Assembly: GCA_021108395.1 (NCBI GenBank)
Contig: JAIOQZ010000029.1
Coordinates: 1 to 64,000 of the forward strand
DNA: 64,000 nt
Reading direction: 5' to 3'
DNA from: Candidatus Cloacimonadota bacterium
GTDB lineage: Bacteria; Cloacimonadota; Cloacimonadia; Cloacimonadales; JAIOQZ01
The notes beneath the pieces were generated by a model, which worked only from the letters and a program-made list of their open reading frames with translations, was not told the DNA's origin and searched no databases. Each line of letters opens with the position of its first letter. Position 1 is the first letter of the stretch. Of the stretch, positions 32,272 through 40,732 are shown in pieces. The position numbers and the translations under genes are program-made.

Positions 32272-32958
32272 CTATTGCGCCTGTGGGCAGGGGATTGGCG
32301 CCACCTGTACGTTGAGCGGATTGTCCTCGCTGAGAAAGACATGCCGGTCAACGTAGTCGGTGGTATCGCGTGAAACTGGGGCCACGGCCACAGGCTGTTC
32401 GTCAGCGGCCACAGGCTGTTCGTCAGCGGCCACAGGCTGTTCGTCAGCGGCCTCAGGCTGTTCATCAGCAGCCTCAGGCTGTTCATCAGCAGCCTCAACT
32501 GGGTCGGCTGGAGGTTCGTCATTTGTTTCGCCGGGTTCGCTGTCTCCGTTGGAGATCATCTCGGCAAAGCCGAACTGGAGCAAGCCTCGGCTATGCAACT
32601 GCCAGACAACGATGGACAGAACGACCACCAGTAGCGCCAGCGCCAGGATTAACAGGATATTGCCTGGCAACAGCAGCTTACGATGTGCCTTGTGTTTGGT
32701 GTAGCTGGTGCGCTGCTCACGGTTGGCGCGGTAGTTCTTCTCGAACAGCGCCAGTGTTTTATCCAGGTCGGCGCCGATAGCGCGAGAGTAGCTGATGATG
32801 GTGACGCGGGCAAATCCATATCCGCCCATGCGTGAGAAGTCGTTCTTCTCGATGTCTTCGAGCAGGTACTTTTTGATGCGAGACTTCTCGGCCACCTTCT
32901 CGATGGTGAGATCCATCTCTTCGCGGCATTGCTGTAGGTAATTGCCGATTTCTTGCAT
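32272..32958 (-). CDS. RodZ-like helix-turn-helix membrane protein
   Basis: 228 aa. An N-terminal HTH_25 domain (MQEIGNYLQQCREEMDLTIEKVAEK...IKKYLLEDIEKNDF) is followed by a basic linker and one membrane helix (NILLILALALLVVVLSIVVW, about residues 98-117). This is the RodZ plan, where the HTH part binds MreB and the outer part supports rod shape. The region outside is short and acidic, with five near-perfect seven-residue units (AADEQPE/V) encoded by a 21 bp tandem repeat, and lacks the usual RodZ C-terminal domain, although it has four extra residues spanning a CPQAQ end. ATG 4 bp before dapF stop; upstream of the radical SAM gene. Confidence 0.8.
   Translation of the reverse strand: MQEIGNYLQQCREEMDLTIEKVAEKSRIKKYLLEDIEKNDFSRMGGYGFARVTIISYSRAIGADLDKTLALFEKNYRANREQRTSYTKHKAHRKLLLPGNILLILALALLVVVLSIVVWQLHSRGLLQFGFAEMISNGDSEPGETNDEPPADPVEAADEQPEAADEQPEAADEQPVAADEQPVAADEQPVAVAPVSRDTTDYVDRHVFLSEDNPLNVQVAPIPCPQAQ
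32386..32490. repeat. Five 21-bp tandem repeats inside rodZ-like gene
   Basis: Five consecutive units of 21 bp: three identical GGCCACAGGCTGTTCGTCAGC units at 32386-32448 and two variants (CT for CA, CATCAGC for CGTCAGC) at 32449-32490. They are in frame and encode repeated AADEQP(E/V) on the minus strand, so copy-number changes would lengthen the linker without breaking the frame. Confidence 0.95.
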
Positions 32959-35731: not shown

Positions 35732-35760
35732 TTGACAGATGAATCGTCCTGGCGGATTGT
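35732..35760 (+). promoter_or_regulatory. Promoter of the ABC exporter leader
   Basis: TTGACA at 35732-35737 with a 17 bp spacer and GATTGT at 35755-35760. The -35 box is perfect and the -10 box is weak. It precedes the strong ribosome site of the 34-codon ORF. Confidence 0.5.
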
Positions 35761-35786
35761 TGGCGAAATTCACGAAGGAGGAGTGC

Positions 35787-35891
35787 ATGATCAACATTCA
35801 CGTTTCGATCCTGTGGGTCGTAACAACCAGCCCGTTCGCATTCAACAATAAGTATGCAAGCACCCGTCCGTCGTCGAATTTGATGCAGTAA
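35787..35891 (+). CDS. 34-residue leader peptide ahead of ABC exporter genes
   Basis: An ATG preceded by a near-perfect ribosome site (AAGGAGGAG, 4-bp spacing) opens a 34-codon frame ending in TAA at 35889-35891. The peptide is mainly apolar to neutral (MINIHVSILWVV at the start) and has no recognised family or lipobox. It sits between a promoter and a strong intrinsic terminator, 130 bp ahead of the first ABC gene, the position of leader peptides that control drug exporters by attenuation (for example bmrB ahead of bmrCD in Bacillus). Its last codons contain GTCCGT, which can pair with part of the terminator 5' arm. Confidence 0.55.
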   Translation: MINIHVSILWVVTTSPFAFNNKYASTRPSSNLMQ

Positions 35892-35913
35892 ACATGTAAT
35901 ACTATCAAATACC

Positions 35914-35950
35914 GGCCACGGACCCAATAAGTTCGTGGCCTTTTTTTATT
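35914..35950 (+). terminator. Intrinsic terminator between leader ORF and ABC genes
   Basis: Stem of 10 bp (GGCCACGGAC 35914-35923 with GTTCGTGGCC 35931-35940, one G-U pair), seven-base loop and a run of seven T. Begins 22 bp after the leader stop. It would stop most transcripts before the ABC genes, so it is either the end of a small gene or a regulated attenuator. Confidence 0.85.
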
Positions 35951-35988
35951 GGCCGCGGAATCAAACGAAACCGCGGTTCCTTTTTGTT
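35951..35988 (+). terminator. Second hairpin and T-rich tract upstream of ABC genes
   Basis: CCGCGG at 35953-35958 pairs with CCGCGG at 35971-35976, extended by two G-U pairs, loop of 12, then TTCCTTTTTGTTT. A weaker terminator-like element, directly following the first. The first ABC ribosome site (AAGGAG) comes 21 bp later. Confidence 0.5.
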
Positions 35989-36020
35989 TCCTCGGGGTCA
36001 GAAGTTCAAGGAGAAGACCC

Positions 36021-37886
36021 ATGCTACAGAAGTTACACAGTTTGAATCGTCACATGCGAGGCTTTCGCACTCTCTATGTGCTCGCCATAGTCGCCGTTGC
36101 CGCCGGCAGCGGCCTCATGTTCCTGTCACCGCTCATCATGCGTGTCACCATAGATTCAGTCATCGGAACGGAGCCGATCGAGGCAGCTTCGTTCGGTGGG
36201 CGCATCGTCAACTGGCTGGGCGGTGCACAGAGCCTGCGCCACCAGATCTGGCTGCTGGCGCTTGTGATGCTTGGCCTCACCGCCGTCCAGGGCGTGTTCA
36301 CCTATCTCAAGGGGCGTTGGTCTGCCGAGGCCTCGGAAGGCATTGCGCGGGGACTGCGTGAACGGCTCTACGACCACATCCAGAAGCTGCCGTTCTCTTA
36401 CCACGCAAAGGTGGAAACCGGCGACCTCATTCAGCGGTGCACCTCGGACGTCGAGACCATCCGGCGTTTCCTGGCGACGCAGCTTGTCGAGGTGGGGCGT
36501 GCGCTGTTCATGCTGGCGCTGGTCATTCCCATCATGCTGTCGCTCAGCAAGCCAATGACCCTGATATCGATGCTGTGTGTGCCGTTCCTGTTTGCATTCA
36601 GCGTTGTCTTTTTCATCAAGGTGAGGAAGGCGTTCAAGGCCGCGGACGAGGCCGAGGGCGCGATGTCGGCTACGTTGCAGGAAAACCTGTCCGGCATTCG
36701 CGTGGTCAAGGCCTTCTGCCGCCAGCCGTTCGAGCGCCGGAAATTCGACGCCAAGAACGCCGACAACCGCAACAAGTGCTATCGCCTGCTCATTCTGCTG
36801 GCCTGGTACTGGGGCAGCAGCGATTTGCTGGCTCTGTTGCAAATCGCCGCCGTGCTCATCGTTGGGGCGCTATGGGCAGCCCAGGGCAAGATTACCATCG
36901 GTACGCTGGTGGTGTTTATGACCTACGAAGGCTATCTGCTGTGGCCGGTGCGCCAGATGGGGCGCATCCTCACCGACATGGGCAAGACAATGGTGTCGCT
37001 CGAACGCACCGACGAGATTCTGGATGTGCCGCAGGAAGCGCTCACAGAGGGCAACGACAACCCGCCTGCGCTGCAAGGCGCCATCGAGTTCGACCACGTC
37101 AGCTTTGCCTATGACGGAGGCGAGCCGGTGCTGCACGATGTCAGCTTCTCGGCTGCGCCGGGCGAAACCATCGCCATTCTGGGTCCCACAGGGACAGGCA
37201 AGACCACGCTGGTAAACCTGCTGCCACGGCTGCATGACGTGTCCGGCGGCGCTATCCGCCTCGACGGCCACGACATCCGCAGTATGGATCGCACATTCCT
37301 GCGGAGTCAGGTGGGCATCGTGCTGCAGGAGCCGTTTCTGTTCTCGAAGACACTCGAAGGCAACATTGGCCTGGGCATCGCAGACGCTTCGCCTGAGGCA
37401 GTGCATGAGGCTGCCGGCGTTGCCTGCGTGCACGACGTCATCGAGGAGTTCGACGAGGGCTATGAGACAATCGTCGGCGAGCGCGGCGTGACGCTTTCGG
37501 GCGGACAGAAACAGCGCGTAGCCATCGCCCGCGCCATCATTCAGAACACACCCGTACTGGTGTTCGACGACTCGCTCAGCGCCGTTGACACCGAGACCGA
37601 CGCCCGCATACGGCGGGCGCTGAAACAGCGCAAGGGCAGAGCGACGACTATCATCATCAGTCATCGCCTCACCACCCTTGCCCAGGCCAATCGCATCCTG
37701 GTGATCGAGCACGGACGCATCGTCGAGGAGGGCACCCACGAGGAGCTCCTCACCCACGCAGGCCTGTACCACCGCATCTGGGATATTCAGAGCGCGCTCG
37801 AAAAGGACGTGCAGGATGAAATGGACAAAGAAGATATACCGATACCTGAAGAACTACAGGCCGTGGCGACGTCACAGCCCGCTTGA
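36021..37886 (+). CDS. ABC exporter half-transporter with degenerate Walker B
   Basis: 621 aa, a six-helix membrane domain (residues 1-330) and a C-terminal ATPase domain (about 345-600). Walker A is GPTGTGKTT (about 390), signature LSGGQKQR (about 492), Walker B VLVFDDSLSAVD (about 514), where the catalytic Glu is Asp. In heterodimeric exporters such as TM287/288 and BmrCD one subunit has exactly this defect together with an intact LSGGQ. The ATG at 36021 follows AAGGAG; the upstream open frame crosses the terminators and was rejected. Substrate unknown; drugs, lipids or peptides are typical for the family. Confidence 0.92.
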   Translation: MLQKLHSLNRHMRGFRTLYVLAIVAVAAGSGLMFLSPLIMRVTIDSVIGTEPIEAASFGGRIVNWLGGAQSLRHQIWLLALVMLGLTAVQGVFTYLKGRWSAEASEGIARGLRERLYDHIQKLPFSYHAKVETGDLIQRCTSDVETIRRFLATQLVEVGRALFMLALVIPIMLSLSKPMTLISMLCVPFLFAFSVVFFIKVRKAFKAADEAEGAMSATLQENLSGIRVVKAFCRQPFERRKFDAKNADNRNKCYRLLILLAWYWGSSDLLALLQIAAVLIVGALWAAQGKITIGTLVVFMTYEGYLLWPVRQMGRILTDMGKTMVSLERTDEILDVPQEALTEGNDNPPALQGAIEFDHVSFAYDGGEPVLHDVSFSAAPGETIAILGPTGTGKTTLVNLLPRLHDVSGGAIRLDGHDIRSMDRTFLRSQVGIVLQEPFLFSKTLEGNIGLGIADASPEAVHEAAGVACVHDVIEEFDEGYETIVGERGVTLSGGQKQRVAIARAIIQNTPVLVFDDSLSAVDTETDARIRRALKQRKGRATTIIISHRLTTLAQANRILVIEHGRIVEEGTHEELLTHAGLYHRIWDIQSALEKDVQDEMDKEDIPIPEELQAVATSQPA

Positions 37887-38024: not shown

Positions 38025-39854
38025 ATGGCACATACAGCATTTGAAGAACAAGAATACAGCAAGCGGTTTGACCTCTCGCTGTGGCGCAAAATGATGCGCT
38101 ATGCGTGGGTTTACAAGCCAGTCGTCATTCTACTGGGCAGCACAATGGTTTTCGCTGCGCTCCTGGACGCCGTCTTTCCGCTGCTCACGCGGCATGTCAT
38201 CGACAACTATGTGCGCCCGGGCGTCACCGAGGGGCTGGGCGGCTTCGCGGCGCTATACATCGGGCTGGTGGTGGTGCAGGCAATCAACGTCTGGGGGTTC
38301 ATCGCCCTGGCCGGCAAACTGCAGATGAGCATCATCTACGACATCCGCCGCGATGGCTTCGACCACCTGCAACGGCTGCCGTTCAGCTACTTCGACCGCA
38401 CGCCGCTGGGCTGGCTCATGGCCCGCATAACCTCCGACTGCGAACGTCTGGGAGGCATCATGGCCTGGGGACTGGTCGATATCGCCTGGGGAACGACCAT
38501 GATGCTGACAGTGACTATCATCATGCTGGCGCTCAACTGGAAGCTGGCGCTCATCGCGCTGGTCGTGGTACCGCCACTGGCAGCCGCCAGTCTGTGGTTC
38601 CAGAAGCGAATCCTGAAGAACTACCGCGTGGTGCGCAAGACAAACTCGCGCATCACCGGCGCCATCAGCGAAGGTATCTTCGGGGCGCGAACCACCAAGA
38701 CCCTGGTGCGCGAGGAAGCCAATCTGGCCGAATACCAGCAGCTCACCGGCAAGATGTATGGGGCTTCGGTGCGAGCGGCTGTCATGTCGGCGCTCTACCT
38801 GCCCATCGTGCTCTGCGTGGCCACTGTGGGGTCGGGACTGGTCTTGTGGAAGGGCGGCTCGTCGGTTATCGCCGGCGCGCTCACCTACGGCACGCTCGTA
38901 GCGTTCATCAGCTACATGATGCGCTTCTTCGAGCCCATCCACGAGGTGGCGCGTATATTCGCCGAGATGCAGAACGCCCAGGCTTCTGCCGAGCGAGTCT
39001 TCTCTCTGCTCGAAACGCCGGTTGACATCGACGACAGCGACGAAGTGAAGGCGGCCTGGCCGCAGTGGTTCGAGGGCGAGCCGCCCCAGGAGCGTCTGCG
39101 GGGCGAGGTGCGCTTCGACAACGTCAGCTTCGCCTACAAAAAAGGCGAGCAAGTGCTGAGCGATTTCAACCTGCATGTGAAGCCAGGCGAAAAGATTGCG
39201 CTGGTGGGCAAAACCGGCGCGGGCAAGACAACCATCGTCAACCTCATCGCCCGTTTCTACCAGCCCACCGGTGGCCGCGTCCTCATCGACGGGGACGACT
39301 ATACCACCATGCCGCTGCAACGGTTGCAGAGCAACATCGGCATCGTGTTGCAAAGTCCGCACCTGTTCAGCGGCAGCGTGATGGAAAACATCCGCTATGG
39401 CCGTCTGGAGTCGAGCGACAAAGAAGTGAAGCAGGCGGCGCGGCTGGTGAACGCCGATGAGTTCATCGAACGACTCGAAAAGGGCTACGATACCGAGGTG
39501 GGCGAAGGCGGCAGCCTGCTGTCCACCGGCCAGAAACAGATGGTCTCGTTTGCACGGGCTATTCTGGCCGACCCCTCGATCTTCGTGCTCGACGAAGCGA
39601 CATCGTCGGTGGACACAGAAACCGAGCACCTAATCCAGTCGGCGGTGGACAAGCTGCTGCGGGGACGCACAAGCTTCATCATCGCGCACCGGCTGTCCAC
39701 CATCCGCTCAGCCGACCGCATTCTCGTTCTCGAACACGGGTGCATCATCGAGCAGGGGTCGCACCACGAGCTGATTAAGCTCAAAGGGCGCTACTACCAG
39801 CTCTACACCAACCAGTTCATGGAAGAGAAGGAGCGGGAGATACTCACCGCATGA
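38025..39854 (+). CDS. ABC exporter half-transporter with degenerate signature motif
   Basis: 609 aa: six-helix membrane domain (IYDIRRDGFDHLQRLPFSYFDRTPLGWLMARITSD is split over the typical intracellular loop) and ATPase domain. Walker A GKTGAGKTT (about 394), Walker B FVLDEATSSVD (about 521) with the catalytic Glu, but the signature reads LLSTGQKQ (about 497) instead of LSGGQ. This is complementary to the partner encoded upstream, so the pair should form one consensus and one degenerate ATP site. ATG follows GAGAGG. A strong hairpin lies 16 bp after the stop. Confidence 0.92.
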   Translation: MAHTAFEEQEYSKRFDLSLWRKMMRYAWVYKPVVILLGSTMVFAALLDAVFPLLTRHVIDNYVRPGVTEGLGGFAALYIGLVVVQAINVWGFIALAGKLQMSIIYDIRRDGFDHLQRLPFSYFDRTPLGWLMARITSDCERLGGIMAWGLVDIAWGTTMMLTVTIIMLALNWKLALIALVVVPPLAAASLWFQKRILKNYRVVRKTNSRITGAISEGIFGARTTKTLVREEANLAEYQQLTGKMYGASVRAAVMSALYLPIVLCVATVGSGLVLWKGGSSVIAGALTYGTLVAFISYMMRFFEPIHEVARIFAEMQNAQASAERVFSLLETPVDIDDSDEVKAAWPQWFEGEPPQERLRGEVRFDNVSFAYKKGEQVLSDFNLHVKPGEKIALVGKTGAGKTTIVNLIARFYQPTGGRVLIDGDDYTTMPLQRLQSNIGIVLQSPHLFSGSVMENIRYGRLESSDKEVKQAARLVNADEFIERLEKGYDTEVGEGGSLLSTGQKQMVSFARAILADPSIFVLDEATSSVDTETEHLIQSAVDKLLRGRTSFIIAHRLSTIRSADRILVLEHGCIIEQGSHHELIKLKGRYYQLYTNQFMEEKEREILTA

Positions 39855-39870
39855 TCTTCACAGTTGATAT

Positions 39871-39903
39871 GCAGCCCCGGCTCGCACCGGGGCTGCAATT
39901 TGA
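39871..39903 (+). terminator. Hairpin after the second ABC gene
   Basis: Perfect 10-bp stem GCAGCCCCGG (39871-39880) / CCGGGGCTGC (39887-39896) with a six-base loop, followed by AATTTGATG. It has only a short T-run, so termination may be partial. It argues against starting the next gene at 39851, which would translate the hairpin. Confidence 0.55.
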
Positions 39904-39922
39904 TGACAAAATGGGGCGCAAA

Positions 39923-40732
39923 ATGAGCAGACAACCATCAAGTGACGTTCTGAAGGCATTTAATGCAACTGAAAGCCCAATACTCTTAGTGAGTGGTCAG
40001 GGGCAGTGCTATCGCTCTGGTAACGTTGTTCTCAAACCAGCAAAAAATGATGTCGAGACAAACTGGATTGCTGATTTATATTTGACCGCCAACTGTGATG
40101 GTTTTCGCTTACCCAAACCTATATTCTCGAATTCTGGTGATTCGGTTCACGACGGCTGGCAGGCTTGGGAATACTTGCACGGACAAATCGAGAAAGCGAG
40201 GTGGTTAGAGAAAATTGAAATCTGTGCTCAATTCCATCGGGCAATCTCTGCTATTCCCTATCCATCCTGCTTTGAACAAAGAGAGCAAAACCCCTGGGTG
40301 ATTGCAGACAAAGTTACCTGGGGAGAATTAGAAGTTGAGCATCACCCCCGAATTGCACCGGTGATCGATCAGCTTCGTGCCTGTCTGCAACCGGTAAATG
40401 AAAAATCGCAGTTAATCCACGGTGATTTTGGTGGAAACATCATGTTCTCGGACCAGCTTCCTCCGGCCATTATTGACTTCTCACCATATTGGCGGCCTGT
40501 TGAGTTTGCTATTGGTGTTATGATAGCCGATGCAGTCGTCTGGGAAGGAGCCGACGTGTCCTTGATTGAAGCCGGAAACAGATTCAATAACTTCCATCAG
40601 CATCTCGCACGGGCAGAACTCAGAAGAATAATCGAGCTGGATATGTTATACAAAATGCATCAAGTGAACAAACTGAGTGAGATAGAAGCCCATCTCCCTT
40701 TGATTAGAGCTATTCTTGTACGCTACGGTTGA
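39923..40732 (+). CDS. Aminoglycoside phosphotransferase-like protein (TIGR02569-like)
   Basis: 269 aa from the ATG at 39923; ATG at 39911 is another option. It has the kinase-like catalytic motif LIHGDFGGNIMFSD (HGDxxxxN) and the metal-binding IDFSPYWRPVEFAIGV, which in this branch is typical of TIGR02569 proteins. Substrate unknown; resistance or small-molecule phosphorylation are both possible. The G+C content is visibly lower than in the flanking genes, which suggests acquisition. The gene lies between the ABC hairpin and a strong terminator. Confidence 0.68.
   Translation: MSRQPSSDVLKAFNATESPILLVSGQGQCYRSGNVVLKPAKNDVETNWIADLYLTANCDGFRLPKPIFSNSGDSVHDGWQAWEYLHGQIEKARWLEKIEICAQFHRAISAIPYPSCFEQREQNPWVIADKVTWGELEVEHHPRIAPVIDQLRACLQPVNEKSQLIHGDFGGNIMFSDQLPPAIIDFSPYWRPVEFAIGVMIADAVVWEGADVSLIEAGNRFNNFHQHLARAELRRIIELDMLYKMHQVNKLSEIEAHLPLIRAILVRYG

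Follow-up and report, generated by a model that had tools for sequence, protein, structure and literature searches.

A putative ribosome-controlled attenuator with tandem terminators in the leader of an ABC exporter of Cloacimonadota

Described attenuators and the leader of the window

In the leaders of vmlR (B. subtilis) and rli53-lmo0919 (Listeria), an anti-antiterminator, an antiterminator and a terminator are combined with an upstream open reading frame (uORF) of three codons; a ribosome arrested on this very short uORF, as in lincomycin-type arrest at the start, blocks the anti-antiterminator, so that the antiterminator forms and readthrough follows (PMC9226507, PMC8079631). Two adjacent Rho-independent terminators 3' of a leader peptide have been described for ermK of B. 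licheniformis (PMC4335068), and Rli59-lmo1652 of Listeria is induced by several translation inhibitors (PMC8079631). Moreover, many ABC operons are predicted to be preceded by transcription attenuators (PMC2965389).

Here we analyzed a leader in a stretch of 64,000 nucleotides (the window), which is part of a 2.89-Mb draft genome of Cloacimonadota. A short ORF with a ribosome-binding site lies 5' of a gene, with an intrinsic terminator between them, as in ribosome-mediated transcription attenuators (Table 1). The leader resembles vmlR and rli53 in its three-state attenuation by a start-arrested ribosome, which is modelled here; disruption of the anti-antiterminator by a ribosome at the uORF start was seen in silico only. 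In vmlR and rli53, however, a uORF of three codons lies inside the anti-antiterminator hairpin, its Shine-Dalgarno sequence (SD) is single stranded, and one terminator precedes an ABC-F gene, whereas the window ORF has 34 codons and precedes a transmembrane exporter, and leaders of the window type would form a long-range anti-antiterminator helix, from the SD/start region to the 3' part of an ORF of 24-37 codons, followed by two terminators in relay. In bmrB-bmrCD of B. subtilis, too, a leader ORF stands 5' of the genes for a heterodimeric ABC exporter, there a multidrug pump, and attenuation depends on the ribosome (PMC4191407), as predicted for the window. A reading made earlier from the sequence only had proposed bmrB-like control; the logic is partly supported but the anatomy differs, as the bmrB terminator lies within its ORF (PMC4191407) whereas T1 of the window starts 22 nt past the leader stop codon, and no tandem relay has been described for bmrB. 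The likeness to ermK concerns the two adjacent terminators, and the ermK attenuator controls an rRNA methyltransferase; Rli59-lmo1652, compared by description only, also has a small leader ORF before an ABC transporter gene. The element is known in kind from vmlR, rli53, ermK and bmrB, and what is new is the predicted switch from SD to ORF end together with the relay. In the literature searched, no leader peptide of Cloacimonadota was described, and no leader was reported to join a terminator relay to an anti-antiterminator between an SD and the end of its own ORF, both being weak negatives as few subscription papers were covered.

Table 1. Positions of leader elements and following genes in the window
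Feature	Position	Strand	Remarks
Putative -35 element TTGACA	35732..35737	+	read directly; -10 unconvincing
Leader SD/start region, 5' strand of the predicted anti-antiterminator helix	35769..35787	+	SD AAGGAGGAG at 35775-35783
Leader ORF, 34 codons, MINIHVSILWVVTTSPFAFNNKYASTRPSSNLMQ	35787..35891	+	ATG at 35787, TAA to 35891
Putative switch element M	35859..35879	+	codons 25-31, Ala-Ser-Thr-Arg-Pro region
Terminator T1	35914..35947	+	5' arm 35914-35923, 3' arm 35931-35940, T7 35941-35947
Terminator-like hairpin T2	35951..35985	+	stem 35951-35958 / 35971-35978
ABC exporter half-transporter 1	36021..37886	+	ABC_membrane and ABC_tran; ATG at 36021 with an SD of its own
ABC exporter half-transporter 2, heterodimeric partner	38025..39854	+	domain matches and comparison with half-transporters of known structure
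APH-like phosphotransferase	39851-40729		PF01636; TIGR02569 below cut-off

The SD, the ORF, T1, the second hairpin, the ABC start and the match between GTCCGT (35866-35871) and ACGGAC (35918-35923), all listed by the sequence-only reading, were recovered at the same positions. The T1 stem (35914-35940; 10 bp with 7 GC, loop of 7) has a folding energy of -16.7 kcal/mol, and T2 is weaker, with a delayed U run (T5 at 35981-35985). A promoter had also been proposed at TTGACA. The hexamer is present, and TTGAC is kept approx. 55-75 nt 5' of the leader ATG in all 10 examined type I loci of the Cloacimonadota group as well as 5' of 23/23 type II leaders; however, GATTGT, which stands 17 nt 3' of TTGACA, is a poor -10, and a sigma-70 scan called no promoter at the TTGACA of the window leader. 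Searches of the leader peptide against Pfam and NCBIfam gave no match, the Arg-X-Arg stall motif of erm/macrolide leaders is absent from it, and an Rfam covariance-model search found no match in the window leader or in 12 related loci.

The two genes 3' of the leader represent an ABC exporter pair of the heterodimeric type. When compared with bacterial half-transporters whose structures are known, the second subunit matches TmrAB and TM287/288 better than BmrD (YheH), by match ranking only (TmrAB and TM288 rank ahead), and BmrC was absent from the best 60 matches for the first subunit. The APH-like gene, which shares 4 bases with the end of the second ABC gene, was rejected as part of the exporter unit because it is present in only 2 other genomes of 40; a good match (55%) was found only in genome G019 among the 40 relatives compared. 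Elsewhere in the window (32272-32958, minus strand), the outer part of a helix-turn-helix/RodZ-like protein contains consecutive EQPVAAD/EQPEAAD repeats.

Pairings conserved among related leaders

For 104 distinct loci, taken from the genome's relatives, its phylum and the GTDB species genomes, we extracted the sequence 5' of the orthologue of the first ABC gene; close relatives are scarce, with one further genome in the family. A rule-based detector (SD, ORF of 20-48 codons, terminator -10 to +60 nt from the stop), which applied no pairing criterion, found an SD-ORF followed by a terminator in 36 of these loci (34 once near-duplicate leaders were removed), and the majority of the 104 loci had no recognised leader of the window type. 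This set superseded a hand-picked first set, with unchanged outcome. As a background for SD complementarity, 16 ordinary window genes (GC-rich) were uninformative, and composition-matched shuffles were used instead.

In the window leader alone, pairing between the ORF and the T1 arm did not significantly exceed dinucleotide shuffles (P = 0.09-0.12), and thus the 6-nt match between GTCCGT and ACGGAC is by itself no evidence. Over the 34 leaders, pairing between the 3' segment of the ORF (M) and the T1 5' arm is significant (P = 4e-15; Fisher), with individual significance in only 15/34. Own pairs scored higher than swapped pairs in 20000/20000 permutations. The pairing is kept with exchanged letters in L020 (GTCCGTGG with CCGCGGAC), L013 (GTGTCCGC with GCGGACAC) and L082 (CACGGCCTGTG with CACAGGCCGTG). 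This predicted antiterminator is mutually exclusive with the terminator and is kept by covariation. The relatives, with a conserved ORF and covarying pairing, bear out the earlier proposal of a leader-ORF attenuator in which a segment of the ORF can break the terminator.

M can also pair with the SD, the linker and the start codon of the same leader, so that its partner is either the SD/start region or, via 35866-35875, the T1 5' arm. In the window, the SD/start region (35769-35787) and M (35859-35879) form a duplex of -19.4 kcal/mol (shuffle P = 0.01-0.02). Over the 34 loci the pairing was highly significant (P = 4e-29, Fisher; P <= 0.05 in 29 loci). Own pairs exceeded swapped pairs in each of 20000 permutations. 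The linker covaries with M, e.g. GGTTATAAACAT with ATGTTTATGACC in L103, and similarly in L107, L088, L110 and L099.

The core of M corresponds to Arg-Pro codons (CGA-CCT, CGT-CCG) near the end of many leader ORFs, beyond which the peptide sequence is not conserved. Frame 1 is preferred, and L013, L031, L103, L105 and L110 use other frames for the core, all three frames being found among the relatives, which argues that it is, at least in part, the RNA that is kept. A conserved Arg-Pro acting as a stalling peptide was set aside on the same grounds, although frame 1 is preferred.

The T1 3' arm (35932-35940) is in turn complementary to the T2 5' arm (35951-35959; 9 bp, -15.3 kcal/mol, P = 0.002 in the window). 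Of 27 type I loci examined for the relay, 18 have a T2, and over these the complementarity was significant (P = 2e-23; Fisher), with own pairs of type I leaders exceeding swapped pairs in 20000/20000 permutations; it was also significant over 11 type II loci (P = 1e-7; Fisher). More than an additional hairpin, T2 belongs to a relay with T1 that could disable both terminators. A duplicated terminator could yield such complementarity trivially; however, the T1 and T2 stems differ from each other in leaders of the Cloacimonadota family f8, and in two loci (L014 and L016) a 12-bp relay helix extends into the T2 loop, so that duplication would not explain the relay there. Overall, comparison among relatives establishes the pairings of the putative attenuator and their covariation.

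A total of 464 kb of the window genome (both strands), for which 400 kb were sampled in stretches, contained 197 terminator-like sites and only 3 pairs of an SD-ORF with a terminator, and only the window leader showed all of the pairings. Bacillota orthologues carry the element as well, hosts being e.g. Tissierella pigra and Geosporobacter ferrireducens, so that it is not confined to Cloacimonadota; the earlier expectation of a new leader peptide in this phylum fits the literature searched but has to be widened to this extent. A fixed Bacillota form of the motif gave one match each in 6/18 host genomes (reversed control, 0). One of these six matches, in Alkaliphilus transvaalensis (L153, 1572-700, minus strand), is a complete window-type leader (MKKLILLSNQTATKKISARPMTKNI) with two terminators, which precedes small ORFs of approx. 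60 aa of unknown function and not an ABC exporter. The fixed pattern GGAGGTCGTG-ATG-CACGRCCT proved too narrow, with only 3 matches among the 399 genomes searched in Tissierella's phylum, of which 2 were not leaders.

Ribosome position, proposed mechanism and rival explanations

Folding was run at equilibrium with the ribosome footprint held unpaired, a crude stand-in for co-transcriptional kinetics that leaves out RNA polymerase timing, ribosome loading and pausing, all of which matter in vmlR and tlrB (PMC9226507, PMC6851288). For the full window leader, M:SD, T1 and T2 are predicted to fold when no ribosome is present, and T1 and T2 when a ribosome occupies codon 10, M or the stop codon; with a ribosome at the start, M pairs with the T1 5' arm and the T1 3' arm with the T2 5' arm. 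In a codon-by-codon scan of the full-length leader, T1 and T2 were absent only with P-site codons 1-3; L020 and L082 switched at codons 1-4, with a similar result for L084. The mean T1 probability over 28 leaders was 0.75 without a ribosome, 0.39 with the start masked and 0.88 with M masked, as compared to 0.83 and 0.81 in ORF-shuffled controls (P = 2e-5; Wilcoxon), and several relatives (e.g. L050, L099, L107, L110) showed no switching in this model. At a transcript length just past T1, T1 of the window folds even with the start masked, so that part of the effect must come from the relay or from kinetics.

We consider it probable that the window leader acts in cis as a transcription attenuator under ribosome control, in which two terminators are combined with three pairings that exclude one another, and that it is ON only upon arrest at the start; in the model, the switch would depend on ribosome position, and start-arrested ribosomes are most likely what the leader senses. 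Without ribosomes, M would be bound to the leader SD/start region and T1 and T2 would fold (OFF); with freely moving ribosomes, M would be covered and then vacated, and both terminators would again fold. A ribosome held up on the start codon or within the first 3-4 codons would hide the SD side and leave M free to capture the T1 5' arm, whereupon the released T1 3' arm would capture the T2 5' arm, no terminator would form and the two-gene ABC exporter would be transcribed. By analogy with the established cases, the natural signal may be antibiotics that arrest initiation or early elongation, which the exporter would then remove.

Under a simpler, bmrB-like scheme, any slowing of translation before GTCCGT would free the segment that breaks T1, and the SD pairing and T2 would be incidental. 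Conservation of the pairing between M and the T1 5' arm and the bmrB precedent (PMC4191407) agree with this scheme, and the sequence-only reading had likewise expected a stall anywhere before GTCCGT to induce. That segment, however, also pairs with the SD/start region; SD:M has the stronger statistical support of the two pairings, and once a ribosome has moved on from the start, SD:M would form again behind it. Modelled stalls at codons 4-34 of the window lead to termination, and induction is predicted only at codons 1-3. We thus regard the simpler scheme as unlikely.

The pairing of the SD with M might instead only delay initiation on the leader, the relay being a duplicated terminator and attenuation resting with M and the T1 5' arm alone. 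SD occlusion would lower leader translation, and many Bacillota leaders have similar T1 and T2 arms. This appears quite improbable, however, given that the SD-side and T1-side sites on M overlap by at least 4 nt in 31/34 loci (40% in shuffles), as a switch needs, and that the type II relay takes in T2 loop bases though the T1 and T2 stems differ. We give marginally less credence still to the notion that tandem intrinsic terminators close a gene for a small protein or an sRNA, with the exporter transcribed by readthrough or from its own promoter and no switch involved: the 34-aa peptide is hydrophobic-looking, its SD is perfect and T1 is a good terminator, but the peptide is conserved only at Arg-Pro, the M core occurs in all three frames and the M pairings covary.

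Returning to the attenuator that is ON only upon start arrest, we lean slightly towards regarding it as a distinct class, which would report occupancy of the start codon, hand over from T1 to T2 by strand exchange and stand before one ABC-exporter lineage in Cloacimonadota and Bacillota.

Other leader types and implications

Type II leaders stand 5' of the same ABC gene in the Cloacimonadota family f8 (L002, L004, L006, L014, L016, L136 and others). Their ORFs have 11-15 codons, e.g. MINIFKNRVPQGTSA or MINFTGRLRNN with an Arg-Leu-Arg motif, and an Arg-X-Arg motif is present in L014, L016 and L018. A segment past the stop covaries with the T1 5' arm (0/20000 swaps), followed by the same T1/T2 relay, and in L014 a hairpin with the RLR codons holds the antiterminator segment, as in erm-type leaders. 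In equilibrium folding, no clear dependence on the ribosome was seen for most leaders of type II, and we therefore make no firm claim as to their mechanism. More distant ABC homologues of the Cloacimonadota family f10 (L142-L145, L019, L023) are preceded by an ORF of 26-29 codons with a strong SD and no U-tract terminator, with a conserved CAGACCCGTT shortly 5' of the ABC start in several; these leaders possibly represent another type of control.

If the proposed mechanism is true, this would be the first antibiotic-type leader switch described in Cloacimonadota, within the literature searched, and the same switch would serve one exporter lineage in two phyla, under the rule that only inhibitors arresting ribosomes at the first codons induce. 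An SD-linker that can pair with Arg-Pro codons at the end of the ORF, followed by paired terminators, would provide a signature for finding such leaders. The strand-exchange relay between two terminators would represent a simple and reusable route to attenuation that is tight yet reversible, and the window-type design would extend the known antibiotic-sensing RNA switches.
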